DNA of 64,000 nucleotides, from assembly GCA_013298075.1 (NCBI GenBank), contig JAAFJG010000004.1:1-64000 (forward strand). Direction: 5' to 3'. This document shows, piece by piece, positions 1 through 12,158 of the stretch (the stretch's first letter is position 1; every line of letters begins with the position of its first letter). Below the pieces are notes generated by a model. That model did not search any database. It saw only the letters and a list, made by a program, of their open reading frames with translations, and was not told the DNA's origin. Position numbers and translations under genes: made by a program. The stretch is from Cytophagales bacterium. GTDB taxonomy: Bacteria > Bacteroidota > Bacteroidia > Cytophagales > Microscillaceae.

Positions 1-130
1 ATACGACAAACTTCCGTAACTATTTTTTAATATTTTACCTCAATAATATACCTTTGAAAAATAAAAAAATATCTATGTACTATTAAATAACACATTTATC
101 GTAAATTCAAAATGTCATTCATATTGATAC

Positions 131-211
131 ATTGATAACCATTTTTTTTTATAGAATAATTGAACATTTTTTTGATAGATTGAAAGAGTTTAATAATTTT
201 TTGTATATTTG
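131..211 (+). promoter_or_regulatory. Island promoter module, copy 1
   Basis: This is a degenerate copy of the upstream module found before several genes of the island. A broken palindrome (ATTGAT-A-ACCATT, 131-143) is followed by a T-run, GATAGATTGAAAG, and a Bacteroidota -7 box TATATTTG at 204-211. The -33 box is weak (ATTG at 179-182). It should drive the gene starting at 280. Confidence 0.55.
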
Positions 212-279
212 CAAATGATGTAAACAAAACTAAATATTTATACTATTCTTCATCAATTTAAAAACCAATAAAAAATAAG

Positions 280-891
280 ATGGCATACAATAAATTTAAA
301 ATAGAACATTTGAAAGATAAACTTAATCTTATTGTTTTGAATGAATATTGGCTCAATACTGATTTAAAAGAATTTGAAAAAGATACAATTTTGGATAGTT
401 TGCTTTCTGAAGCGCCCTCATTATTTTTAGGTAGTAAAAAAGCAAGGTCTGAATTTATTGTTACGCCTGTTTTGCAAACATTGAGTAGAAAAAATAAAGG
501 CAAAATTACTATATTTTCGGGTTATGAATTTAATATCGATAAAAAAATAGAACTAAATGGTTTTTGTGATTTTATCTTATCTGCTCCCGCAACGAATAGT
601 TTTGTATTAGAAGCACCTACTTTTTTTGTAGTAGAAACCAAAAAAACAGATATTAATGATAATGCTATTGCTCAATGTGCCGCTGAATTATATGCTGCAC
701 AAATTTTTAATACCCGAAATAATAAACCACAAAAAGCCGTTTATGGTACTGTAACTTCTGGCTATAGTTGGATTTTTTTAAAACTCGAAAATCAAACTTT
801 ACGCATTGATCCAGACCCTCGTTATCTTTCTTTTACAAACCCATATCAAGTATTGGCAACATTACAAGAAATTTTAAATATAAGTTTATAA
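280..891 (+). CDS. ExK nuclease-like protein of unknown function
   Basis: I do not recognise a named family for this 203-residue soluble protein. Its middle holds an acidic residue in 'GFCDFIL' (about residue 92) followed by a beta strand with E-x-K in 'FFVVETKKTD' (about 120-125). This arrangement is typical of the PD-(D/E)XK fold, as in type I restriction R-subunit N-termini. A helix with Gln (IAQCAAELYAAQIF) follows, also typical of the fold. The gene at 1106 has the same layout (PDY, then VVEAKK, then AQCLLEMY), so the two are divergent paralogs. It has its own copy of the island promoter. Nuclease activity is inferred, and no methyltransferase or helicase gene adjoins it. Confidence 0.6.
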   Translation: MAYNKFKIEHLKDKLNLIVLNEYWLNTDLKEFEKDTILDSLLSEAPSLFLGSKKARSEFIVTPVLQTLSRKNKGKITIFSGYEFNIDKKIELNGFCDFILSAPATNSFVLEAPTFFVVETKKTDINDNAIAQCAAELYAAQIFNTRNNKPQKAVYGTVTSGYSWIFLKLENQTLRIDPDPRYLSFTNPYQVLATLQEILNISL

Positions 892-903
892 ATAAAATAA
901 AAC

Positions 904-1016
904 ATTGATAATCAATATTTTATATAATAAATCAATGTTTTTTTTGATAGATTGAAAAGAGTTTAATAATTTTTTTGATAGATTGAAAAGAGTTTAATAA
1001 TTTTTTTGTATATTTG
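904..1016 (+). promoter_or_regulatory. Island promoter module, copy 2, with 31-bp duplication
   Basis: The perfect palindrome ATTGAT-A-ATCAAT lies at 904-916. The segment TTTTTTGATAGATTGAAAAG plus GTTTAATAAT occurs twice in tandem, with a 31-bp period (about 940-1002). The -7 box TATATTTG is at 1009-1016. It should drive the gene at 1106. The duplication moves the palindrome 31 bp further upstream than in the other copies. Confidence 0.6.
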
Positions 1017-1105
1017 CAGAGTGTATAAATTCTTTGTAAAAAGTAAAAATAAAAATTGTGTAATATTACATTTGCAAAAAAATAAATAATATTTATAAAT
1101 CCAAT

Positions 1106-1720
1106 ATGGACTTCAAAAAATATAAATCTATTGATGAGGTGGCTATTAAATTTCAACTTTCTATCAAAAAAGAGGAATTTATTACCAACATTCCACCTTT
1201 GGCAATGCCTGACCTACTGAAAGCAGACTTGCAATATATTACGCTTAACTATCCTTACAACGTTTCGGAGGCAGCAATAAGAGAAACTATTTTATTTCCA
1301 ATTTTAAAGGAAGTTTGGAAAAGATACGACCAAACTTTGATGCTTTGGGCAAATAAAAGCATATCGTTTAGCAAGGAATTGTCGGGTATGCCTGATTATG
1401 TAGTAGCAAAGCAATCTCACTTAGGTAAAATTGTGTTTGGTAGTCCACTTTTGGCGGTAGTAGAAGCGAAAAAAGATGACTTTGAAGGTGGTTGGGCACA
1501 GTGTTTATTAGAAATGTACACCATTCAAAAAATCAATAATAATCCTAATTTGCCTGTATTTGGCATTGTAAGCAATGGTGATAATTGGCAGTTTGGTAAA
1601 TTAGAAAATACTCAATTTACTGAAAATACAAGTGATGCTTTTTTGCAAGAAATGGATAATTTATTTTCTACTCTTATTTTTTTCTTCGAACTCTGTCATC
1701 AAAATATCTCAAAACTTTAA
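1106..1720 (+). CDS. ExK nuclease-like protein, paralog of the 280-891 product
   Basis: This 204-residue protein shares the core layout of the gene at 280. It has 'GMPDYVV' (about residues 95-101), then 'LLAVVEAKKDDF' with E-x-K (about 116-127), then a Gln-containing helix (WAQCLLEMYTIQ) and a strand ending 'VFGIVSNGDNWQFGKL'. The last motif matches 'VYGTVTSGYSWIFLKL' in the paralog and is common in restriction-like folds of unknown role. It has no signal peptide or membrane segment. A promoter module copy lies directly upstream and another directly downstream, so it is probably transcribed alone. Function beyond the fold is not known to me. Confidence 0.6.
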   Translation: MDFKKYKSIDEVAIKFQLSIKKEEFITNIPPLAMPDLLKADLQYITLNYPYNVSEAAIRETILFPILKEVWKRYDQTLMLWANKSISFSKELSGMPDYVVAKQSHLGKIVFGSPLLAVVEAKKDDFEGGWAQCLLEMYTIQKINNNPNLPVFGIVSNGDNWQFGKLENTQFTENTSDAFLQEMDNLFSTLIFFFELCHQNISKL

Positions 1721-1738
1721 ATTTTTTATTCATTTGGC

Positions 1739-1819
1739 ATTGATAATCAATGTTTTATAGGATAAATTAACATTTTTTTTGATAGATTTTGGTATTTTGA
1801 ATAGTTATGTTTATATTTG
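1739..1819 (+). promoter_or_regulatory. Island promoter module, copy 3
   Basis: The perfect palindrome ATTGAT-A-ATCAAT (1739-1751) is followed by a textbook Bacteroidota promoter: TTTG at 1788-1791, a 20-bp spacer, and TATATTTG at 1812-1819. It drives the first Rpn gene (ATG at 1854). Spacing from palindrome to -33 box is the same as in the copy at 3661. Confidence 0.75.
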
Positions 1820-1853
1820 CAAAGTACTATATCAACATAAATCCTATAAAAAA

Positions 1854-2787
1854 ATGTTAGGAAATCTAGACAACGAAGTTATTTTTAAAAAAGCCTTTAC
1901 AAATAAAATTGTATTTAAGGCTTTTGTGCGTGATATTTTGGGAATAGAAGTGGAAGTAGATAAAATTGAAACCGAAAAAAAATTTGACCCAAAAATTGGT
2001 TATGTAGATTTTGAATTAGATATTTTTGCAGAAACTACCGATAAACGCATTTGCATAGAAATTCAAAGAGTGGAATATGACCACCATTTTGATAGATTTT
2101 TGCATTATTTTTTGATGTTGATTGCAGAACAACAAAAGAAAGCAAAAGACTATAACATTGATTTGACTGTCTATGTGATTGTCGTTTTGACTGCACCTTA
2201 CACCATTAGTGATAAAAATGGTAAAGCAATTTTAGACGAAGTTTTATTACTCAATCTCAATCCACAAACATTAAAAGGTGAAATAAGAGATTTATTTGGG
2301 CATAAATTTGTTTGCCTAAACCCAAATCACCCCGAACAAGACACGCCTCAACAAATTAGAGATTGGTTAGATTTGATTTATCAATCGATTCATAGTCCTG
2401 AAAGACCTGTTTTGAATACTGATAATGAAGGTATTAAAAAAGCAATAGAATTGATAAGTTTTGAAAATCTTACACCCGAAGAACGTACACAAGCCAAAAA
2501 TAAAGAAGCAACAAATTCATAGTCCTGAAAGACCTGTTTTGAATACTGATAATGAAGGTATTAAAAAAGCAATAGAATTGATAAGTTTTGAAAATCTTAC
2601 ACCCGAAGAACGTACACAAGCCAAAAATAAAGAAGCAACAAGAGTAACAATAGCAAAAATCGAAAATAGAAAGGTTTTTGAAATTGCTAAAAAAGCAATC
2701 AAAAAAGGCTTCGATAATCAAACTATTGTAGATTTGACAGATTTAACCATCGAACAGATAGAACAACTACGAAGTGAAAAGGAATAA
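1854..2787 (+). pseudogene. Rpn-family PD-(D/E)XK protein, frameshifted by a 127-bp tandem duplication
   Basis: The start ATG at 1854 encodes an Rpn/PDDEXK-transposase-family nuclease domain. It has 'GYVDFELDIF' with the acidic residues and 'ICIEIQ' in place of E-x-K (about residues 47-70). The sequence 2388-2514 is repeated exactly at 2515-2641. Because 127 is not a multiple of three, the frame ends at a TAG (2520-2522), giving a 222-residue protein without its tail. Removing one copy restores a 268-residue reading frame ending at 2787 (tail 'IEQIEQLRSEKE'). It could be a broken gene or a reversible on/off state. The downstream twin at 2815 is intact and has an identical nuclease domain. Confidence 0.8.
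2388..2641 (+). repeat. Perfect 127-bp tandem duplication
   Basis: Two identical 127-bp units (2388-2514 and 2515-2641) lie inside the Rpn coding region. Base-by-base comparison shows no mismatch. The unit encodes the linker between nuclease domain and variable tail and shifts the frame by one. The twin gene at 2815 has only one unit. Confidence 0.95.
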
Positions 2788-2814
2788 AAACTGTATTAAA
2801 AACCAAATAAAATT

Positions 2815-3633
2815 ATGCTTGGCAACCTAGACAACGAAGTTATTTTTAAAAAAGCCTTTACAAATAAAATTGTATTTAAGGCTTTTGTGCGTGATATTTT
2901 GGGAATAGAAGTGGAAGTAGATAAAATTGAAACCGAAAAAAAATTTGACCCAAAAATTGGTTATGTAGATTTTGAATTAGATATTTTTGCAGAAACTACC
3001 GATAAACGCATTTGCATAGAAATTCAAAGAGTGGAATATGACCACCATTTTGATAGATTTTTGCATTATTTTTTGATGCTGATTGCAGAACAACAAAAAA
3101 AAGCAAAAGACTATAACATTGATTTGACTGTGTATGTGATTGTCGTTTTGACTGCACCTTATACCATTAGTGATAAAAATGGTAAAGCAATTTTAGACGA
3201 AGTTTTATTACTCAATCTTAATCCACAAACATTAAAAGGTGAAATAAGAGATTTATTTGGGCATAAATTTGTTTGCCTAAATCCAAATCACCCCGAACAA
3301 GATACGCCTCAACAAATTAGAGATTGGTTAGATTTGATTTATCAATCGATTCATAGTCCTGAAAGACCTGTTTTGAATACTGATAATGAAGGTATAAAAA
3401 AAGCAATAGAATTGATAAGTTTTGAAAATCTTACACCCGAAGAACGTACACAAGCCAAAAATAAAGAAGCATCAAAAATTGTTTTTGCAAAAATGGAACT
3501 TAAAGCAAAACAAGAAGAAAAACTTGAAATTGCTAAAAAACTCATTAAACGAGGTTTATCAAATGAAGAAATTTCAGAAGACACAGACTTAGCCATCGAA
3601 CAAATAGAAAAACTACGAAATGAAAAGGGATAA
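2815..3633 (+). CDS. Rpn-family PD-(D/E)XK nuclease, intact copy
   Basis: This 272-residue Rpn-like protein (PD-(D/E)XK nuclease family transposase) is intact. The nuclease domain spans about residues 1-150, with the active site in 'GYVDFELDIF' and 'ICIEIQ'. A linker 'ENLTPEERTQAKNKEA' follows, and then a charged tail 'KQEEKLEIAKKLIKRGLSNEEI' broken by 'IEQIEKLRNEKG', which resembles the small helical motif at the end of many Bacteroidota Rpn proteins. Up to the linker its protein is identical to the upstream copy, with about 12 nucleotide differences, all synonymous; the tails differ strongly. Rpn proteins are known DNA endonucleases tied to recombination and, in some reports, phage defence. 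No module copy lies between it and the first Rpn gene. Confidence 0.8.
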   Translation: MLGNLDNEVIFKKAFTNKIVFKAFVRDILGIEVEVDKIETEKKFDPKIGYVDFELDIFAETTDKRICIEIQRVEYDHHFDRFLHYFLMLIAEQQKKAKDYNIDLTVYVIVVLTAPYTISDKNGKAILDEVLLLNLNPQTLKGEIRDLFGHKFVCLNPNHPEQDTPQQIRDWLDLIYQSIHSPERPVLNTDNEGIKKAIELISFENLTPEERTQAKNKEASKIVFAKMELKAKQEEKLEIAKKLIKRGLSNEEISEDTDLAIEQIEKLRNEKG

Positions 3634-3660
3634 AAAATTATTTTTCTTATTTTATAAAAC

Positions 3661-3741
3661 ATTGATAATCAATATTTTATAAAATAAATTAACATTTTTT
3701 TGTATTAAATTTGGTGTTTTAAATAGTTGTGCTTATATTTG
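3661..3741 (+). promoter_or_regulatory. Island promoter module, copy 4
   Basis: The palindrome ATTGAT-A-ATCAAT (3661-3673) precedes TTTG at 3710-3713, a 20-bp spacer and TATATTTG at 3734-3741. It is nearly identical to the module before the Rpn gene (1739-1819) and should drive the four-gene chaperone operon starting at 3791. Confidence 0.75.
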
Positions 3742-3790
3742 CAGAGTGTATTAGTTTTTTATAAAAAGTATAACTAAAAATAAATAATAA

Positions 3791-5317
3791 ATGATATTTA
3801 TAAATCCATACGAAGTTTTAGAACTCACTACCCCTGATAATAATGAAGTAAAAAAAGCTAAACGCAGGAAGCTAACTGAATTTGATTTGTCAGATGATGG
3901 AAGCGTTGAGTTTAAAAATGTCAAAATTCATAAAGCAGACTTTTTGAAAGCTATTGACGAATTAGATAATGAACAGAAAAGTCAATTTTATTGGAGTATT
4001 AAAAATAACATCGAACTAAGTAACTTTCTTCTTTTGGGCGATACTTGGTTTTTTACCAACTATCAAATACAACGTATTTTTAGCAACCCTGATTTTGTTG
4101 AATTTATAAGTCCTTATTTTGCTTATCAATATAACAAAGTTATTTTTGAAACTTTTAATGAAGGTAATATTAACCTACTTAAAAAACTTGTTGCAAACCC
4201 TATTTTAACTGGCACAACCCAAACTGATAAAGCATATCAAAGTCTAAGAGAATTTATCAATACACAAATTCAGGATTTAAATGAAATAAGGACAGATATT
4301 GAAAATGAAGAAACACACTATGACGAAGATAATGCAGAAGAGGTTTTTTCAGATTTACAACATATTATAAATACTAATATTTATAATATGTTGCCTATTT
4401 ATTTTCAATCACAACGAAATGATATTGCACAAAAATTACGAAATATTTCAGTTGCAGTATTCAATAATTTGAATAGCTCAGAAGTTGCCTTAAAAATTAT
4501 AAAGTTTGCTTTACAACTAAACATAAACAACTTAACAAAGCAAAATATTGAAAAAGACTATAACCAAATTGAAGCAATCCATAAAGAAAGAGCAGAAGCC
4601 GAAAAATACGCTCCTTTGCTTTTAAAATATGCTTCGGTTCTTCGTCATTTGCAAGAGTGCATGCAAAATGCTAAAAGTATCAAGAATATAAGTAATTTTG
4701 TTTCAAAAGTAAACGCCATTATAAATATTGATGATTTAAACAAACAACCTGATGTTTTCAATGAAATAAGAGGGCAAATAGCATTATCAATTAGGGCTTT
4801 ATCTATTACAATTTTTAATGAACATAATGACCTTGAAATAGCAACACCATTAATTAAAATTGCACAAAAAATAAATGTTGTAGATAATGAAATAAAACAA
4901 CTTATTAGAGAAGCAGCAAATGATTTAGAGGGTATTGTTCAAAAAAGAATAACACAGCAAAAAAAAGAGTTGAATGAAATTAGTAGCATATTTTCTAATA
5001 TCCATTATCAAATACGAAACTCTGACGTAACCAATATTAACCAAGACAAAGTTTTAAAAATATTCAGTGATATTCTTACAAGAGAGCGAGTGGATTTTAT
5101 TGCTAACTCAACTAATTTTTCTAATTTACAAGAAGAAATTTTTGGACGCTGCAAAGATATTGCTTTAAAATTAGAAAAAAAGTATTCTTTGGCTATCATA
5201 GATCATATTAGAAACATTGGCAAAGAAAATCAAAAGCTTGCTAATCGTATTAATGAATTCAAAGCAGAACAAGAAAGTCGAGGTTTTTGGGGGTTTGTAA
5301 ACAATTTATTCAAATAA
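3791..5317 (+). CDS. Helical protein with degenerate J-like N-terminus, first gene of Hsp70 operon
   Basis: This 508-residue, mostly alpha-helical protein belongs to no family I can name with certainty. Its first 75 residues resemble a J domain in order: 'NPYEVLEL', then 'NNEVKKAKRRKL' (helix II), then 'AIDELDNEQKSQFYW', like the AYEVLSDPEKR..Y end of DnaJ. The HPD loop is missing and reads 'FDLSDDG'. The rest is long helices, charged coiled coil around residues 255-275 and 375-410, and a C-terminus 'GFWGFVNNLFK'. It is followed by GrpE-like, Hsp70 and TerB-like genes in the same direction, so a co-chaperone or substrate adaptor is a reasonable inference. Loss of HPD means classical ATPase stimulation is doubtful. 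Confidence 0.5.
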   Translation: MIFINPYEVLELTTPDNNEVKKAKRRKLTEFDLSDDGSVEFKNVKIHKADFLKAIDELDNEQKSQFYWSIKNNIELSNFLLLGDTWFFTNYQIQRIFSNPDFVEFISPYFAYQYNKVIFETFNEGNINLLKKLVANPILTGTTQTDKAYQSLREFINTQIQDLNEIRTDIENEETHYDEDNAEEVFSDLQHIINTNIYNMLPIYFQSQRNDIAQKLRNISVAVFNNLNSSEVALKIIKFALQLNINNLTKQNIEKDYNQIEAIHKERAEAEKYAPLLLKYASVLRHLQECMQNAKSIKNISNFVSKVNAIINIDDLNKQPDVFNEIRGQIALSIRALSITIFNEHNDLEIATPLIKIAQKINVVDNEIKQLIREAANDLEGIVQKRITQQKKELNEISSIFSNIHYQIRNSDVTNINQDKVLKIFSDILTRERVDFIANSTNFSNLQEEIFGRCKDIALKLEKKYSLAIIDHIRNIGKENQKLANRINEFKAEQESRGFWGFVNNLFK

Positions 5318-5353
5318 CAATTAAGCAATATAAATTACTAATTCTTTTAAAAT

Positions 5354-5725
5354 ATGCAGACATATAAATTACCCAAAGAATACGAAGTGTATCTTAATAT
5401 GCTCAATCAAGTATTCGAGATGGAGAAAAAATTGGAGAAAATCCAAGAAACTAATAGCATCTCTCGTAATCTCACAAGATTAAAAGAAATGTTTGAGCAA
5501 AATCTACCCTTTGAAAATGGTTTTGGTCTTGTTATTCATAATCCTATAGGCGAGGATTACAATCAAACTAGGCTCGATTGTGAAGCAAATATAGCAGGAG
5601 AAAGTACTGAAAATTTGGTTATTATAGAAGTAATAAGACCAATCATCAGGGTTAAACAAGGCGGTTTAAATCAAATTGTTCAAAAAGCAGTCGTTGTAGT
5701 ACAATCTAAAAACTCTATTTCTTAA
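5354..5725 (+). CDS. GrpE-like nucleotide exchange factor (divergent)
   Basis: This short 123-residue protein has an N-terminal helix (residues 1-55, coiled coil 'VFEMEKKLEKIQETNS') and a beta-rich C-terminus ending 'VIRPIIRVKQGGLNQIVQKA' plus VVVV. This mirrors GrpE, where a long helix precedes a beta domain that ends with a Gly-containing turn and a paired strand (RPAxVxV). Typical GrpE is 170-200 residues, so the helical part is shortened. It sits 36 bp after the J-like gene and 21 bp before the Hsp70 gene. I infer that it works as the exchange factor for that Hsp70; a general GrpE presumably lies elsewhere in the genome. Confidence 0.5.
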   Translation: MQTYKLPKEYEVYLNMLNQVFEMEKKLEKIQETNSISRNLTRLKEMFEQNLPFENGFGLVIHNPIGEDYNQTRLDCEANIAGESTENLVIIEVIRPIIRVKQGGLNQIVQKAVVVVQSKNSIS

Positions 5726-5746
5726 CTCAATAGTAACATCACGATT

Positions 5747-8230
5747 ATGGAAAATATGATAAACTTCGGTATTGACTTGGGTACAACAAACTCAGTAATT
5801 GCCAAATTTGTAAAAGGTGAAGTGCAAGTTTTTACCAATCCTACTGATTTCGGCAGAAATACTTTGCCTTCTGTTATTGCCTTTCGCAAAGATCGAATCT
5901 TTGTAGGCTCAAAAGCCCAAGAGTTTGCGGAGAAAGACCCAAAAAATGTACTTTCTCGTTTCAAACGTAAAATGGGAACTTCTGAGAGTTACAAAATTCC
6001 TGTACTTAACCAATCTAAAACTCCTATTGAACTTTCTGCTCAAATATTGAAAGAGTTGAAAAACTTTATTCAATCAGGCGAAGCATTAGATAGTGTTGTG
6101 ATAACTATTCCAGCGTCTTTTGACACCATACAATCAAATGCAACCAAAGATGCAGGATTACAAGCAGGTTTCAAACAAGTAATTTTATTGCAAGAACCTA
6201 TTGCGGCAAGTTTGGCGTATGCTAACAAAAAGAAAGACAAAGAATTAGCAGATGGGCAATGGTTAGTTTATGATTTGGGCGGTGGTACTTTTGATGTTGC
6301 CTTAGTAAAAATCAAAGAAGGGGAAATGAAAGTGCTTGACCACGAAGGTGACAACTTTTTAGGTGGGACGGACTTTGACGATGAAATAGTACGTAAATTG
6401 ATTGTTCCTAAATTAGAAAATGCAGGTAGTTTTTCAAACTTGGAAAGTCAAATGACGAGTGCATCAGGCAAATATAATGGAAAATTTTTAGCCTATCGTT
6501 TTTTAGCAGAAAAATTGAAAATTGCTTTATCTTCTCAAACTTCCGAAGAGATAAATGTACAAATTACAGACGAAGATGGAAATGATATAGACGAGTATAT
6601 TAGCATTTCTCGTTCAGAGTTTGAGAACATCATAAAATCAAGCGTGGATACTACTATTGAAATGGTTAAAAAAATACTTGTTCGTAATTCTTTGGGTGCA
6701 AAAGATTTACAATTTGTTTTAATGGTAGGTGGTTCTACTTTCATTCCTTTTGTTCGTAAAAGGGTTGAAGAAATGCTACAAATTCCTGTAAATTGTGATA
6801 TTGACCCAACAACCGCAGTGGCTATTGGTGCAGCTTATTATGCAGGCACGAAACAAAAATCTTTTGAAAAAGACGAAAAAAAGAAAAAGAATGTAAGTCT
6901 CAAAGTAAAAATGGCTTATGAAAAAGCAAGTAAAGAAAAAGAAGAATATTTTGCCGCAAGAATTGAGGGTAATACAGAAAGTTTAACCTATCGTATTACA
7001 AGAGAAGATGGAGGGTTTGACACAGGATTAAAACCACTATCAAAACAAATAAATGAAGATTTACCACTTGTGGAAAATGCTTATAACTTCTTTAAATTTG
7101 TCGTTTATGATAACCAAAACAATATAGTAGAAACTGATGCTGAACTGATAGGTATCAACAGTGGATATGGTATTACAGGACAGCCCCTACCTAATGATAT
7201 TTGTCTTGAAGTTGATGATTTAGAATTAGGAAGAACAAGACTTGAATTAGTTTTTCAAAAAAATTCAGTTTTGCCAATTCGCAAAACAATTACAAAACCT
7301 TTAAATAAGACACTTATAAAAGGTTCCAAAGAAAGTGTAAGAATTTCGATTTTAGAAGGCTCACATTTAGCACTACCTGAAGCAAATCTTAGCATTGGTT
7401 TTTTAGAAATGAAAGGAAATCAAGTTGTTAGGGATATTTCAAAAGGTTCAGATATTGAAATTACAGTTGAGATTTCTGAAAGCAGAGATTTGACTATATC
7501 TGCCTATTTAACAATGGCAGACCAAGAATTTAAACAAATCTTCAACCCAAAAGAAAGGCATACACCTATTAGCGTTTTAGTTGAACAGGTTGAAGAACTT
7601 TCTGAAAAATTAGAAACGGAAATTTTAGAAGCAACCGAAAGGGAAGATTACGAAACCGCTAAAAATTTGCAGTCTTTGAAAAAGCAAATGAATGAAATTC
7701 AAACTCAAAGTGAAAAACTAAGTGAAGATGATATTACAGATAATCGTTATCAATTAGAAGACCGCAAACGAAAAATTGCACAAGAGATAGACAGCGCAAC
7801 CAAAGACAAAAGAACACAAGTTGCTAAGAGCAATTATTTGGAAATAAAGGAAAGATGTGCAGAACTTGTTAATAACAATGGTAATGACTACGAAAGGAAA
7901 GTTCTTAACGACATAGTTTCTCGTGAAAAGGCTTTTTTAAGTTCAAGTAGTCCTTTAAAAATTCAAGAAGCAACAGATGAACTGCATACATTGATTATTC
8001 AAATTCTTTGGCGAACACCTGAATTTATTGTCAGCATATTCAGAGATCTTGCACAAAACGAACGAGTACGAATGAATGATCAACAACAAGCAAGTATGTT
8101 AATAGACGCTGGTTTAAAATCAGTCAAAGAAAATGATTGGGAAAAATTAAGTGAAGTAAATCAACGACTACTTAATTTATTGCCTAAGTCTGTTCAAGAT
8201 CAAGTTAAACAAGGTAAAATTGGTTTCTAA
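5747..8230 (+). CDS. Hsp70-family chaperone with long C-terminal helical extension
   Basis: This 827-residue protein is longer than DnaK (about 640). Residues 1-370 form a complete actin-like ATPase: 'IDLGTTNS' (phosphate 1), 'VVITIPASFDTIQSNATKDA' (connect), 'VYDLGGGTFDVALV' (phosphate 2), 'GGTDFDDEI', and 'VLMVGGSTFIPFVR' (adenosine site). A Lys-rich linker follows, then a region (about 400-610) that replaces the normal substrate domain and is poorly conserved. From about 610 there is coiled coil containing 'EREDYETAKNLQSLKKQM', which resembles the UVR motif of UvrB/ClpC, and then a helical end. DnaK itself would end in an EEVD-like or acidic tail; this one does not. It probably works with the flanking GrpE-like, J-like and TerB-like proteins. 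A start at 5756 is also possible. Confidence 0.85.
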   Translation: MENMINFGIDLGTTNSVIAKFVKGEVQVFTNPTDFGRNTLPSVIAFRKDRIFVGSKAQEFAEKDPKNVLSRFKRKMGTSESYKIPVLNQSKTPIELSAQILKELKNFIQSGEALDSVVITIPASFDTIQSNATKDAGLQAGFKQVILLQEPIAASLAYANKKKDKELADGQWLVYDLGGGTFDVALVKIKEGEMKVLDHEGDNFLGGTDFDDEIVRKLIVPKLENAGSFSNLESQMTSASGKYNGKFLAYRFLAEKLKIALSSQTSEEINVQITDEDGNDIDEYISISRSEFENIIKSSVDTTIEMVKKILVRNSLGAKDLQFVLMVGGSTFIPFVRKRVEEMLQIPVNCDIDPTTAVAIGAAYYAGTKQKSFEKDEKKKKNVSLKVKMAYEKASKEKEEYFAARIEGNTESLTYRITREDGGFDTGLKPLSKQINEDLPLVENAYNFFKFVVYDNQNNIVETDAELIGINSGYGITGQPLPNDICLEVDDLELGRTRLELVFQKNSVLPIRKTITKPLNKTLIKGSKESVRISILEGSHLALPEANLSIGFLEMKGNQVVRDISKGSDIEITVEISESRDLTISAYLTMADQEFKQIFNPKERHTPISVLVEQVEELSEKLETEILEATEREDYETAKNLQSLKKQMNEIQTQSEKLSEDDITDNRYQLEDRKRKIAQEIDSATKDKRTQVAKSNYLEIKERCAELVNNNGNDYERKVLNDIVSREKAFLSSSSPLKIQEATDELHTLIIQILWRTPEFIVSIFRDLAQNERVRMNDQQQASMLIDAGLKSVKENDWEKLSEVNQRLLNLLPKSVQDQVKQGKIGF

Positions 8231-8231
8231 T

Positions 8232-8726
8232 ATGAAAAACGTAGAATTTAGAAAAATCCTTTTTAAAGGTGCATTTTCTGTAATGGCATGTGATGGTGAA
8301 GTGGCAGAAAGTGAAGTGGCAGAAATGAAAGAAATGCTTATCAACTCTCCCTATTTTGACAGTTTAGACCATGAAACAGAGTTAAAATTAGCATTTGCAG
8401 ACTTAAAACTGAATGGAACAAAGTCTATTCAAATGTTTTTTCAGACTTTGGAAAATTCCGATTTGTCAGAACGTCAAGAGTTACAAATGGTGGAAGTACT
8501 TATAAGAATGGTACAAGCAGACAATAAAGTAGATGATAATGAACTTATTTTTATGCACAACATTAAAAGTAGGCTTAAAAAACTTTCAGACGAAAAATTG
8601 ATTGTACATTTCCCAAGACATATAGATATTTTGCTGGATTTGGGAAATTTTAGTAGTAAACCATTACAAAATAACTTGGAAACAATAAATTTGAACGCAT
8701 TCGGAAACTTAAATCTAACCGAGTAA
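8232..8726 (+). CDS. TerB-like protein, last gene of Hsp70 operon
   Basis: This 164-residue all-helical protein has the TerB (tellurite-resistance/DjlA N-domain) signature twice: 'ACDGEVAESEVAEMKEM' near the start and 'VQADNKVDDNELIFM' in the middle. TerB-type domains bind metal through such Asp/Glu residues and occur in stress and defence operons. The ATG at 8232 is one base after the Hsp70 stop. A TTG at 8220 would overlap that gene and is less likely. The tight coupling argues for joint function with the Hsp70. Notably, the same fold forms the N-terminal domain of DjlA, a membrane J protein. Confidence 0.7.
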   Translation: MKNVEFRKILFKGAFSVMACDGEVAESEVAEMKEMLINSPYFDSLDHETELKLAFADLKLNGTKSIQMFFQTLENSDLSERQELQMVEVLIRMVQADNKVDDNELIFMHNIKSRLKKLSDEKLIVHFPRHIDILLDLGNFSSKPLQNNLETINLNAFGNLNLTE

Positions 8727-9001
8727 AATAACAAAATAGTTAAATTTAACAACATAATTTATTTACATTTTAATGACTTCTTACAAAAGTCATTAAAATG
8801 CAAATACTTCCTTGTTTACGATAAAAAATAAGATACTTTATAATTTTACTTAAGTAAAATATTTAAAATTTTTGACTTGGTTTCGTAACCATTTATACTA
8901 AATTCGTAAAAATTTAAAAAAATCTTCCCCCTCAAAAAAAAACTAATTTTTGTAATTTTTAACCAAAAACAAATACAAATACATTAAAAAATAAAAATAA
9001 A

Positions 9002-9724
9002 ATGTCAAATCACGTCATTCAAACTACTGACATTTCCCGAACATACGTCATGGGTGATGAACAAGTAAACGCATTAAAATCAGTAAGTATCAATATAAAA
9101 AGAGGAGAATATGTGGCTTTTATGGGTCCTTCTGGCTCAGGAAAATCTACTTTGATGAATATTATTGGCTGTTTAGATACGCCTTCAGGAGGACAATATG
9201 TCCTGAATGGAAAAGATGTAAGCGATATGAGTGAAAATGAATTGGCAGAAGTACGCAATCAAGAAATAGGCTTTATTTTTCAAACTTTTAATTTATTGCC
9301 TCGCCAAAGTTCGTTAGAAAATGTGGCTTTGCCGCTTATTTATGCAGGTTATAACAAATCGCAACGAACCGAAATGGCAATGCAAGCACTCAAAAATGTA
9401 GGACTCGAAAACAGAGCAAAACACAAACCCAACGAACTTTCTGGTGGACAAAGACAAAGAGTTGCCATTGCACGTGCTTTGGTAAACTCGCCGAGTATTT
9501 TGTTGGCTGATGAACCTACAGGAAATTTAGATACCAAAACTTCTTACGAAATTATGGATTTATTTGAGGAATTATACCAAAAAGGAAACACAATTATTAT
9601 GGTAACTCACGAGGAAGATATTGCTCATTATGCTCATAGAATTGTACGTTTAAGAGATGGTTTGGTCGAAACAGATATCATCAATGAAAACGTAAAACAA
9701 ATTATCAAATTAGAAAAATCATAA
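9002..9724 (+). CDS. ABC transporter ATP-binding protein, LolD/MacB/FtsE type
   Basis: This 240-residue ATPase is complete. It has Walker A 'GPSGSGKST' (about residue 42), a Q-loop in '[12 protein letters not shown]', signature '[15 protein letters not shown]', Walker B '[12 protein letters not shown]' and the switch His in 'IIMVTHEED'. The phrase '[19 protein letters not shown]' is typical of the MacB/LolD group, which powers lipoprotein release or export of peptides or macrolides together with an FtsX-like permease. No permease gene is next to it, so the partner must be elsewhere. It is a single-gene unit ending in a terminator at 9735-9771. Confidence 0.85.
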
Positions 9725-9734
9725 ATAAAAATAA

Positions 9735-9771
9735 AAAAAACCGCCAAATTTTAAAAATTTAGCGGTTTTTT
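9735..9771. terminator. Bidirectional intrinsic terminator
   Basis: The stem AAAAAACCGC/GCGGTTTTTT is extended by AAATTT/AAATTT around a 3-base loop, with A and T runs on the two sides. It lies between the convergent ABC ATPase and GH31 genes and can serve both. Confidence 0.85.
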
Positions 9772-9782
9772 TTGATTGAGAA

Positions 9783-12158
9783 CTAAAATTCTATCACCAT
9801 TTTTTCATTATTGAATGATACATCTTGATACGGAAGTTTTTTAATTGTTTTCGAAAAATCTTCAGGATATTCCCAAGGGTCAAAATTAGAAATAGGAATT
9901 ACAAAATTATAATCTAATTTTTTGAGTGATTTATTTGCAGGAAATCCGTGCCAAAAAATACGAATTGTTTCAAAATGTGTGCTATAATTCCCCTCTACTT
10001 TGCTTATTTCTAAGGTTTGTTTTGTATCATCATATTCAAAATAACGGCGATAAAAATCATTATTTTGATAATTTGTACTCAAACCATCGTCTTCATAATA
10101 CAAAAATTTTTCGTTATTTTTACCTTTATATACGTGAACTTCTAAGGTTTTTGAAGGTTTTTGTGAAGTATTTGAAACAGCATTTTGGGTCAAAACAATG
10201 CTGCCACCTCTGACAAAAATAGGCAATTTATCATTTTTCACTTCCATAAAAAATTCCTGTTCGCCCTCATAAAAACTATCATTAAACATATCAAACCAAG
10301 TTCCTTTGGGTAAATATAATTTATGAATTTCACGCTCAGAAGTAATCGCACAAACCATCAAAGATTGCCCAAAAAAGTATTGATTTTGATAATTTCCCTC
10401 ATAAATTTTATCATCAAAAGGATAATCAAACGCTAAACTTCTTTGAATAGGCATACCATTTTGCGTGGATTCATAAAAAGTACTATACAAATAAGGCAAT
10501 AATTTATACCTTAATTTGATATAATTTCGAGCAATTTCTTCTGTTTCTTCTCCAAAACTCCAAGGCTCTGCATCTCTCGAATTGATCATCGTATGACACC
10601 TAAAAAATGGCGAAAAAGCACCAATAGCAATCCATTTATTAAAAATTTCTTTCGTACATTCGCCCACAAAACCACCTACATCTGCTCCCGAAAAAGCCAA
10701 ACCTGACAAACCCATACTATTCAAAAGCCTCACATCACCCAACATATTTCGGTCTTCTGACACATTATCGCCTGTCCAAACGGCTGCATATCTTTGGATT
10801 CCTGAAAAACCTGCCCTTGTCAAAACAAATTGTCGAAGATTGGGGGCAAATTTTTTCGCACCCTCACGCGTAGCACGTGCCATTTGCATACCGTATATAT
10901 TGTGTGCTTTTCTGTGCGTAGTAGGATTTTCATCATAATTAAATTCGGTAATATCAGGAAAATCTTTGCCCCAAACCGCAGGTTCATTCATATCGTTCCA
11001 AAAACCTGTCAAGCCAATTTTTATCAATTCTTCAAAATATTTTCCCCACCATTCTCTTGCTTTTTTGTTCGTAAAATCAGGAAAATGACATATTCCAGGC
11101 CAAACTCCGCCTTCGTATAATTCGCCATCAGGATATTTCACAAAAATATCAGCGTTTTTTCCTTCTTGATAAGGAATATAATTTTCTTCTTTTTTAATAC
11201 CAGGGTCTAAAATTACTACACTTTGAAAACCTTTATTTTTGAGTGTTTTGAGCGTTTTTTCAGGATTTGGAAAGCGTTTTTTATCCCACGTAAACACTTT
11301 GTATTTTTCCATATAATGAATGTCAAAATACAAAACATCACAAGGAATGTCTTTTTTTCGAAACGTATCTGCCAACGTCAAAATTTCATTTTCAGGATAA
11401 TAACTATAACGACATTGCTGAAAACCTAAACTCCAAATTGGTGGTAATTCTATTCTTCCTGTCAAATGTGTATATTTTTCGAGAATTTCTTTGGGCGTTT
11501 TTCCGTAGATAAAATAATATTTCATTTCTCCACCTAACGCTTTAAAATAACTATGTCGATGCGAAGCCGCACCAAAATTAAAGACAGATTTATAGGTATT
11601 ATCAAAGAAAATTCCGTACATTTTATTGGGTCTTATGCCCATAAAAAATGGAATGGACGCATACAACGGGTCAGAATCAGGACTATATCCAAAAGCATCA
11701 CTATTCCAATTGACATAATAATTACCACGTCTATCTAAGTTGCCATTTTTTTCACCTAAGCCCAAAAATCTTTCATTTTTTTGCAATTTTTTATACGCAG
11801 TAACTTCTTTTCCATACCAAGAAATACCAAAATCATCTTCATTGATGACTTCATTTTCATTGTTTAAAAAAACGAATCGAAGCGGATTTTTTTCGATTTT
11901 TAAAGTTAATTGATTTGTTTTGATGAGATAATAATCTTTTTCTTCTGATGTTTTTGTCTCAATTTTACTTTTTGAATTGATGACGCTATAAGAAAAATTA
12001 TCCCAATTTTCATTGGTTTGTTTGGCAGTTATTTGAAAAATATTTTCCTCAAAAACAGTTATTTTTACTTCACCTTCTTTGGTTTTGCAAGTAAAAATTT
12101 GGTTATCTTCTTGAAATTCAATGATTTCAGATAAAAAAATTTGTTCTGTATTGTTCAT
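9783..12158 (-). CDS. Glycoside hydrolase family 31 alpha-glucosidase
   Basis: This 791-residue protein has the GH31 layout. It starts with a beta-sandwich N domain, including 'RFLGLGEKNGNLDRRG', a family hallmark. The (beta/alpha)8 barrel follows with 'PPIWSLGFQQCRYSY', the nucleophile Asp in 'GFWNDMNEPAVWG' (about residue 390), the acid/base Asp in 'VWTGDN' (about 463), and then 'GADVGGFVGECTKEIF' and 'FFRCHTMINSRDAEPW'. Beta domains with 'VFVRGGSIV'-like sequence end the protein. It has no signal peptide, so it is probably cytoplasmic and releases glucose from alpha-1,4/1,6 or nigerose-type oligosaccharides. It forms a single-gene unit with a promoter about 150 bp upstream. Confidence 0.92.
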   Translation of the reverse strand: MNNTEQIFLSEIIEFQEDNQIFTCKTKEGEVKITVFEENIFQITAKQTNENWDNFSYSVINSKSKIETKTSEEKDYYLIKTNQLTLKIEKNPLRFVFLNNENEVINEDDFGISWYGKEVTAYKKLQKNERFLGLGEKNGNLDRRGNYYVNWNSDAFGYSPDSDPLYASIPFFMGIRPNKMYGIFFDNTYKSVFNFGAASHRHSYFKALGGEMKYYFIYGKTPKEILEKYTHLTGRIELPPIWSLGFQQCRYSYYPENEILTLADTFRKKDIPCDVLYFDIHYMEKYKVFTWDKKRFPNPEKTLKTLKNKGFQSVVILDPGIKKEENYIPYQEGKNADIFVKYPDGELYEGGVWPGICHFPDFTNKKAREWWGKYFEELIKIGLTGFWNDMNEPAVWGKDFPDITEFNYDENPTTHRKAHNIYGMQMARATREGAKKFAPNLRQFVLTRAGFSGIQRYAAVWTGDNVSEDRNMLGDVRLLNSMGLSGLAFSGADVGGFVGECTKEIFNKWIAIGAFSPFFRCHTMINSRDAEPWSFGEETEEIARNYIKLRYKLLPYLYSTFYESTQNGMPIQRSLAFDYPFDDKIYEGNYQNQYFFGQSLMVCAITSEREIHKLYLPKGTWFDMFNDSFYEGEQEFFMEVKNDKLPIFVRGGSIVLTQNAVSNTSQKPSKTLEVHVYKGKNNEKFLYYEDDGLSTNYQNNDFYRRYFEYDDTKQTLEISKVEGNYSTHFETIRIFWHGFPANKSLKKLDYNFVIPISNFDPWEYPEDFSKTIKKLPYQDVSFNNEKMVIEF

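Follow-up and report, generated by a model that had tools for sequence, protein, structure and literature searches.

Bacterial Hsp70 chaperones fall into three types, DnaK, HscA and HscC, in the part of the account by Mayer (2021, PMC8215388) drawn on here. Their standard switch is the contact of the HPD motif of a J protein with R167 and Q378 of the Hsp70 (DnaK numbering), both bonded by D35 of the motif, and the same part describes HscA and HscC as lacking the GrpE signature. In the GAP1-N2 GTPase conflict systems, as far as they are described in the sections of Kaur (2020, PMC7159879) used here, HSP70 and GrpE genes are linked to a variable protein bearing DnaJ or TPR domains, near the membrane. 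Here we describe an operon of four genes, A to D, around an Hsp70 gene (C) in the window, that is, the whole stretch of 64,000 nucleotides (nt) analysed, which forms positions 1 to 64,000 of contig JAAFJG010000004.1 in the 4.7-Mb genome of a Cytophagales bacterium (GCA_013298075.1); the relatives of the operon are Bacteroidota. In our reading, the operon represents a bacterial Hsp70 machine of a separate type, equipped with an exchange factor of its own and with a J-like targeting partner that is membrane-anchored as a rule. With a confidence slightly above even, we hold that it is a self-contained machine, distinct from those of DnaK, HscA and HscC, in which B is GrpE-like and A is a J-like targeting protein. 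A literature search covering open-licence full texts found no description of such an A/B/Hsp70 set.

The protein encoded by gene C matched the Pfam HSP70 family (PF00012) at 3.3e-74, with the best stretch at residues 7-375. Its structure was predicted with AlphaFold for B and C as one chain, with Q in place of the TAA stop codon; subtracting 131 from a model number gives the residue number in C. This model had a mean predicted local distance difference test score (pLDDT) of 88 and DnaK and BiP as its structure matches, and was used for folds only. In it, C consists of an ATPase domain (~1-373), an inserted beta region (~383-480), a substrate-binding beta domain (SBD-beta, ~485-600) and a helical lid (~608-820). 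Predicted C aligned to BiP (5o4p_B) over 469 residues, from 3 to 603 and thus through SBD-beta, with a Z of 46.7 and a root-mean-square deviation of 2.4 Å, and the eight strands at 485-599 are those of a usual SBD-beta. Likewise, the C-terminal part of C matched the DnaK profile in hhalign at 71.9%, while the best six of 31 decoys reached at most 1.1% and none of 100 column shuffles scored as high. By its predicted structure, C is an Hsp70 in which neither the ATPase domain nor SBD-beta has been lost. The original prediction of an 827-residue Hsp70 with an intact ATPase is borne out by the family match and the ATPase residues given below, but its claim that the substrate domain had been replaced is contradicted by the BiP alignment and the DnaK profile match. 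What is unusual in C is the extra, beta-rich stretch of about 100 residues between the ATPase domain and SBD-beta; the helical lid is long.

For comparison at the residue level, we aligned 45 of the 66 available C entries (excluding near-copies and broken sequences) with 11 Bacteroidota DnaK proteins and with DnaK, HscA and HscC of E. coli. The catalytic residues D8, T11, K70, D194, T199 and D201 are kept in all 45 C proteins and E171 in 44, the remaining one having an X. By contrast, R167, N170, T173 and Q378, all four in the J-docking site, are each kept in none of the 45, whereas all 11 Bacteroidota DnaK and the three E. coli proteins keep all four. The R167 position holds V in 30 C proteins, L in 10, I in two, T in two and A in one; N170 is replaced by Q in all 45, T173 by I in 43 and V in two, and Q378 by Y in 34 and F in 11. 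In C of the window the replacements are I146, Q149, I152 and Y365, respectively. The docking motif of C, VILLQEPI, aligns without gaps to KRIINEPT of DnaK and adjoins the conserved EP, which argues that the change of docking residues is no alignment slip. Elsewhere, the R151 position is S, T or A in the C clade, and 41 of 45 members have K or R at the E217 position; the comparison covers positions other than D208 and D211, which fall in an alignment gap. The J contacts are gone from C and HPD is gone from A (below), as would be expected if both partners had changed together.

In a tree of the same sequences, all 45 C proteins stand on one side of a branch with a support of 100, apart from the 12 DnaK, HscA and HscC. 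This was a quick tree with a long-branch warning, which leaves the exact placement unsure, and on its evidence the C clade appears to fall outside the three described types. The GrpE-signature loop is near DnaK length in C of the window and a few residues shorter in that of L050, as would suit an Hsp70 that has an exchange factor dedicated to it. At the opposite end of the protein, 44 of 45 C members carry in their last nine residues an hGh motif (hydrophobic or T/N, then G, then hydrophobic), a possible docking peptide. In the window it takes the form IGF at residues 825-827 and stands where other Hsp70s have their usual tail.

The gene neighbourhood of C recurs. A scan with C residues 392-827 found 63 related loci, 62 of them labelled Bacteroidota; the exception, L064, is labelled Limnohabitans but groups with Flavobacterium in the tree, and its label may be a binning error. 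A plasmid search added one relative (L003), on the conjugative Pseudomonas hygromyciniae plasmid pSDM007, where two genes of the PAPS-reductase family lie 5' of the copy (2480-5506). When the neighbours at 65 loci (the scan loci, the plasmid locus and the window) were clustered into families, the Hsp70 was present at 65, A at 57 and B at 57, and the next best family at 14. A more sensitive search detected B at all but two of the 63 scan loci. At 60 of the 61 loci with B, the gene shares the strand of the Hsp70 gene and is at most 342 nt upstream of it. L021 is the sole locus with genes (about 4.5 kb) between the two, B again being upstream (3837-8745). The two loci without B, L006 and L034, have a contig end close 5' of the Hsp70 gene. 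Gene A is found nearby in 55 of the 63, upstream, downstream or on the opposite strand, and three of the eight loci without it (L006, L034 and L066) are on contigs of 3.8-6.3 kb. At L019, a PP2C-type phosphatase gene is divergent from the B-Hsp70 pair (5725-8259).

The locus is patchily spread. C residues 392-827 were matched in one of 15 genomes of the family, its own, and B was found in at least 7 of 395 sampled Bacteroidota genomes, its own included; this count is a lower bound, at most 11 candidates having been scored in most genomes. We take the operon to be accessory on account of this rarity. Horizontal transfer of the locus is suggested by the tree, which places closely similar C proteins of Flavobacterium and of a Chitinophagaceae metagenome-assembled genome side by side and makes the plasmid copy the sister of the window group (94, not starred). 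The gene surroundings of the locus are conserved in the groups of Flavobacterium, Chryseobacterium and Pedobacter. The adjacency of B and Hsp70 and the linkage of A recur over several Bacteroidota families, and these results support a dedicated accessory chaperone machine, as the original prediction had it. Its expectation that all four genes would occur together held for A, B and the Hsp70 but rarely for the TerB gene D (see below).

GrpE consists of a helix pair followed by a beta wing, and the predicted model of B shows this order, with two short helices and then six strands (Table 1). The long N-terminal stalk helix is missing, the protein beginning at the short helix pair. A profile of B scored 22.5 against the GrpE profile, first over 31 family decoys, of which the next scored 19.2. 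When E. coli GrpE was added the score was 22.6, and one of 100 column shuffles was as high. The alignment runs through helix, helix, glycine and then G..[FY]D, as in GrpE. We lean on these grounds, short of proof, towards B being a minimal, stalkless GrpE. The GrpE-like nature originally predicted for this protein finds support in the top-ranked profile match and in the helix-helix-strand order, but the likeness is weak in sequence. Two results weigh against it directly: the hhalign probability was only 5-6% (6.2% at the highest), and Pfam GrpE (PF01025) gave no match to B at an E-value of 1, a search in which HMMER filters may drop weak matches. A profile search of sequences in the Protein Data Bank (PDB) with B gave no GrpE match; GrpE was absent from the 50 matches listed in the fold search with the B+C model, which Hsp70 fills; and comparison with the single GrpE of the same genome (hhalign, 1.2%) was uninformative. 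A match of B to the NCBIfam thioesterase model PRK11688 (0.0012, 18.7 bits against a cut-off of 107) was set aside.

The predicted structure of A has a mean pLDDT of 87, above 90 in the N-terminal part, where helices at 6-9 and 17-33 are followed by a hairpin at 38-47 and helices at 48-59, 61-72 and 74-82; the remainder is helical. This order is compatible with a J domain that has a hairpin in the HPD loop. For comparison with the J profile, A of the window was combined with its 11 closest relatives into a near group of 12 rows, 11 of which were used by hhalign. The match had a probability of 54.7% and a score of 26.5, against 19.7 for the best of 34 decoys, and none of 100 column shuffles scored as high. 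The string HPD does not occur in A of the window, and in the first 120 residues it occurs in one of 79 A proteins, at residue 91 and outside the loop near residue 35. Thus the absence of HPD that had been predicted for a degenerate J-like protein is confirmed, while the J resemblance itself is weak in sequence.

Several results on A and its linkage tell against A as a J-like partner. The match to J spans helices I-II alone, over 28 columns, and holds for the window subgroup only. Wider profiles of the N-terminal domain took in 75 of the 79 A proteins, the other four being those of L012 and L013, which have no N-terminal part, that of L003, which starts with TPR repeats, and one without a recognisable N-terminal pattern. 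In these profiles, 45 broader rows reached 1.4%, with decoys higher though just one of 100 shuffles higher; 30 rows of Flavobacterium, Chryseobacterium and Pedobacter type reached 0.6% and the two sets combined 2.1%, neither above decoys. A J hidden Markov model run over 1047 proteins placed A members at ranks 1, 8, 22 and 25, with a best E-value of 0.22. Foldseek and VIA listed mainly helical repeats for A and did not cover the N-terminal domain, and a profile search of PDB sequences with A gave no J match. To these must be added five loci, besides the three on short contigs, that have no A nearby (L018, L019, L021, L022 and L064), and A of the window itself, which, like that of L004, has no hydrophobic stretch. 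Scans against Pfam and PADLOC gave no informative match for A or B.

Membrane-like segments, defined as 19-residue stretches with a Kyte-Doolittle mean of at least 1.6, are otherwise frequent in A: 71 of 79 members have one, compared with 181 among 500 further neighbour proteins that are at least 250 amino acids (aa) long. In 51 of the 71, the segment is located at residue 252-313. It is followed by fewer than 60 residues in 32 A proteins, which resemble tail-anchored proteins in this respect, and by 60 or more in 39. Among the latter, 26 have more K/R before the segment than after it, which fits an N-terminus inside the cell, and five have equal numbers. The C-terminal parts differ even among relatives with the first ~390 residues in common, for example L005 and L009, and 16 of 57 loci hold two to five A genes. 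The five tandem A genes of L043 (6774-13565), the last of which ends in an FGE-sulfatase domain, recall the variable parts of conflict systems.

A working model can be proposed from these features. C would bind ATP and peptide and pass through a cycle like that of other Hsp70s, and B would open its ATPase cleft for the release of ADP in the fashion of GrpE. The J-like N-terminal domain of A would dock at the usual J place on C, over a surface rebuilt on both sides (mostly V/L/I, Q, I and Y/F in C; a loop without HPD in A). Its variable C-terminal part, in most cases a membrane anchor to which an outer domain may be joined, would set the site and the target of the Hsp70. A would in this way bring C to its workplace, usually the membrane, and might trigger hydrolysis by HPD-free means or, in the manner of Pam16, only position or restrain C. 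These features suggest a mobile-looking operon with a differently triggered Hsp70. The bolder proposal is that of a fourth type of bacterial Hsp70 machine. Both sides would have abandoned the HPD/R167 trigger, which DnaK, HscA and HscC retain, in favour of another docking chemistry between the Hsp70 and an HPD-less, J-like membrane adaptor, and a stalkless GrpE would serve as the exchange factor. We offer it tentatively, as possible but somewhat short of even chances.

The points against a J-like A raise the question of whether A belongs to the J family at all. If it did not, C would be a J-independent Hsp70 with B as its exchange factor, and A would be a dedicated client or a membrane sensor that C holds and releases. 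Absence of the J-docking residues from C, the failure of broader A profiles to rise above decoys, the variable and mostly membrane-bound tails and the multiple A copies would all suit such a client. Yet the N-terminus of the window subgroup matches helices I-II of J with a score that none of the 34 decoys or 100 shuffles reached, and the helices are predicted in an order that suits a J domain whose HPD loop forms a hairpin, so that we regard a client role for A as unlikely, though it deserves to be kept in view. Far less room is left for C as an ordinary extra DnaK that is served by the cellular DnaJ and GrpE, with A, B and D as bystanders. C does keep the whole Hsp70 architecture, and one GrpE and four J proteins encoded in the genome exceed the family cut-off, but the loss of four J contacts in every aligned C and the constant linkage of the Hsp70 to B and A make this very improbable.

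Phage defence was named as one possible role in the original prediction. In a conflict or phage-defence system, the Hsp70 pair would set a threshold for sensors or effectors borne by A, as in the HSP70-GrpE theme of GAP1-N2 systems, for which the sections of PMC7159879 used here provide a precedent. The patchy spread, the copy on a conjugative plasmid, the tandem A genes with variable tails and the one FGE-sulfatase ending are in line with this, as are defence-type genes near some loci. Against it, PADLOC gave no match to A, B or D and one of only 0.72 to C, and C residues 392-827 had no match among 50,697 phage records, nor any relative in a scan of viral contigs for close relatives. Effector or nuclease neighbours are not conserved: no family except A, B and Hsp70 occurs in more than 14 of the 65 loci, and the nucleases upstream of A in the window (Rpn-type genes and PD-(D/E)xK proteins) have no conserved counterpart beside the relatives. 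A scan of 116 neighbour proteins of 120-900 aa from 32 of the 65 loci (up to four genes on each side of the Hsp70 gene, taken without a background set) gave a mixture: in the first 25 families per scan these were metabolic, regulatory and, in a few cases, defence-type (restriction, RtcR-like, Thoeris-like). The conserved context in the Flavobacterium, Chryseobacterium and Pedobacter groups suits housekeeping better. Phage defence is therefore not supported as the role of the operon, and we rate the conflict-system explanation as quite improbable. A self-contained Hsp70 machine with a GrpE-like B and a J-like A remains our preferred reading.

Table 1. Features of the operon and its flanks (positions in the window)
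Feature	Position	Strand	Remarks
Gene A	3791-5317	+	508 aa; J-like N-terminal domain without HPD, remainder all-helical
Gene B	5354-5725	+	123 aa; minimal GrpE-like; helices 8-29 and 34-49, six strands within 58-118
Gene C	5747-8230	+	827 aa; Hsp70
Gene D	8220/8232-8726	+	TerB-family; 164 aa counted from ATG at 8232
Rewritten J-docking site of C	6182-6202	+	residues 146, 149 and 152
C residue 365	6839-6841	+	Y replacing DnaK Q378 (second HPD contact)
Inserted beta region of C	6893-7186	+	residues ~383-480
Putative Bacteroidota-type promoter	3711-3741	+	TTG 3711-3713, then TATATTTG 3734-3741, spacing 20 nt
AT-rich palindrome	3647-3687	not assigned	41 nt, contains CATTGATAATCAAT; dispersed repeat
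Stem-loop 3' of gene D	8760-8806		20-bp stem; terminator-like on minus strand only in scan

The four co-directional open reading frames of the operon were found where they had been predicted, as tightly spaced as described, with gaps of 36, 21 and 1 nt. Gene D matched TerB (PF05099) with 34.8 bits against a cut-off of 24.4, confirming the TerB-like protein of the original prediction but not its membership of the core, as TerB lies downstream in only 10 of the 63 related loci. Seven of these ten are in the tree, all within the window subgroup, which also has Chitinophaga-type loci without TerB. TerB is an optional add-on of this subgroup and not a core partner. At L009, L010 and L012, genes for a CpXC zinc-ribbon protein and a DUF6804 membrane protein lie 3' of TerB, and at L006 and L007 a DUF6804-type gene only.

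The putative promoter was assigned by the Bacteroidota-type consensus. The palindrome at 3647-3687 is probably the terminator of the preceding gene or a small repeat, and the stem-loop beyond gene D is likely to mark the end of the transcript. Gene A and the nuclease genes have an upstream module in common, a 137-nt repeat (1689-1825 and 3611-3747, 74% identical), as the original prediction had noted in linking the two. Its palindrome, however, has 19 copies across the genome (allowing at most one mismatch; control 0), which lie beside unrelated genes, so that the module is no evidence of a link between operon and nucleases; a regulon defined by the palindrome is rejected on account of the same scatter. 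Copies of this dispersed AT-rich palindrome, CATTGATAATCAATNTTTTAT, are found in the window at 903-923, 1738-1758 and 3660-3680, and one lies just beyond the end of dnaK (L180). The region 1779-3633 holds tandem, partly broken Rpn-family PD-(D/E)xK copies (1779-2522, 2461-2787 and 2815-3633), which include a 300-nt stretch that is 96% identical, and local duplication of this region probably accounts for the module in common with gene A. Further upstream, two divergent proteins (280-891 and 1106-1720) matched the CAS-associated PD_DExK model of PADLOC at 2.2e-39 and 1e-43. Rfam gave no match within positions 1-12000 of the window.

A clade in which motor and substrate domain are retained, while the standard switch is gone from both partners, would provide a direct test of other triggers of hydrolysis, and possibly an orthogonal pair of Hsp70 and exchange factor. 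If B is a GrpE, a naturally stalkless form would be a means to test the function of the stalk.

Compared with known systems, the operon has the three-part logic of DnaK-DnaJ-GrpE, and C aligns with DnaK and BiP over the ATPase domain and SBD-beta, but it differs in its separate clade, the inserted beta region, the rewritten J site, the stalkless B and the HPD-less A. Pam16-type proteins have a J-like fold without HPD, are membrane-associated and work with a canonical Hsp70 and Pam18. A would likewise be an HPD-less, mostly membrane-linked J-like protein, but its Hsp70 itself lacks the HPD contacts. DjlA combines a TerB-like domain with a J domain; the operon also has a TerB-type domain in a J/Hsp70 setting, here as a separate, optional gene. 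The Hsp70-like domains of CoCoNuT systems are different, being fused to McrB/McrC homologues in the part of PMC11090510 used here. The HSP70-GrpE theme of the GAP1-N2 systems is the nearest described arrangement, with HSP70/GrpE genes, a variable partner and membrane proximity. According to the parts of PMC7159879 drawn on, those systems have a core of DO-GTPase and GAP1 and occur mainly in actinobacteria and firmicutes; clustering of our 65 neighbourhoods, which included no search for DO-GTPase or GAP1 by name, showed no further conserved family. Among specialised Hsp70s, HscC of E. coli resembles C in having the region of DnaK 76-101 shortened, and is encoded, in the part of PMC8215388 used here, near genes for the membrane tail-anchored J-type partners DjlB and DjlC. 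DjlB and DjlC are J proteins, however, and HscC keeps R167, N170, T173 and Q378, whereas C keeps none of them; and where HscC, without a GrpE signature, is thought in that same part to act free of an exchange factor, a GrpE-like gene here adjoins the Hsp70 gene.

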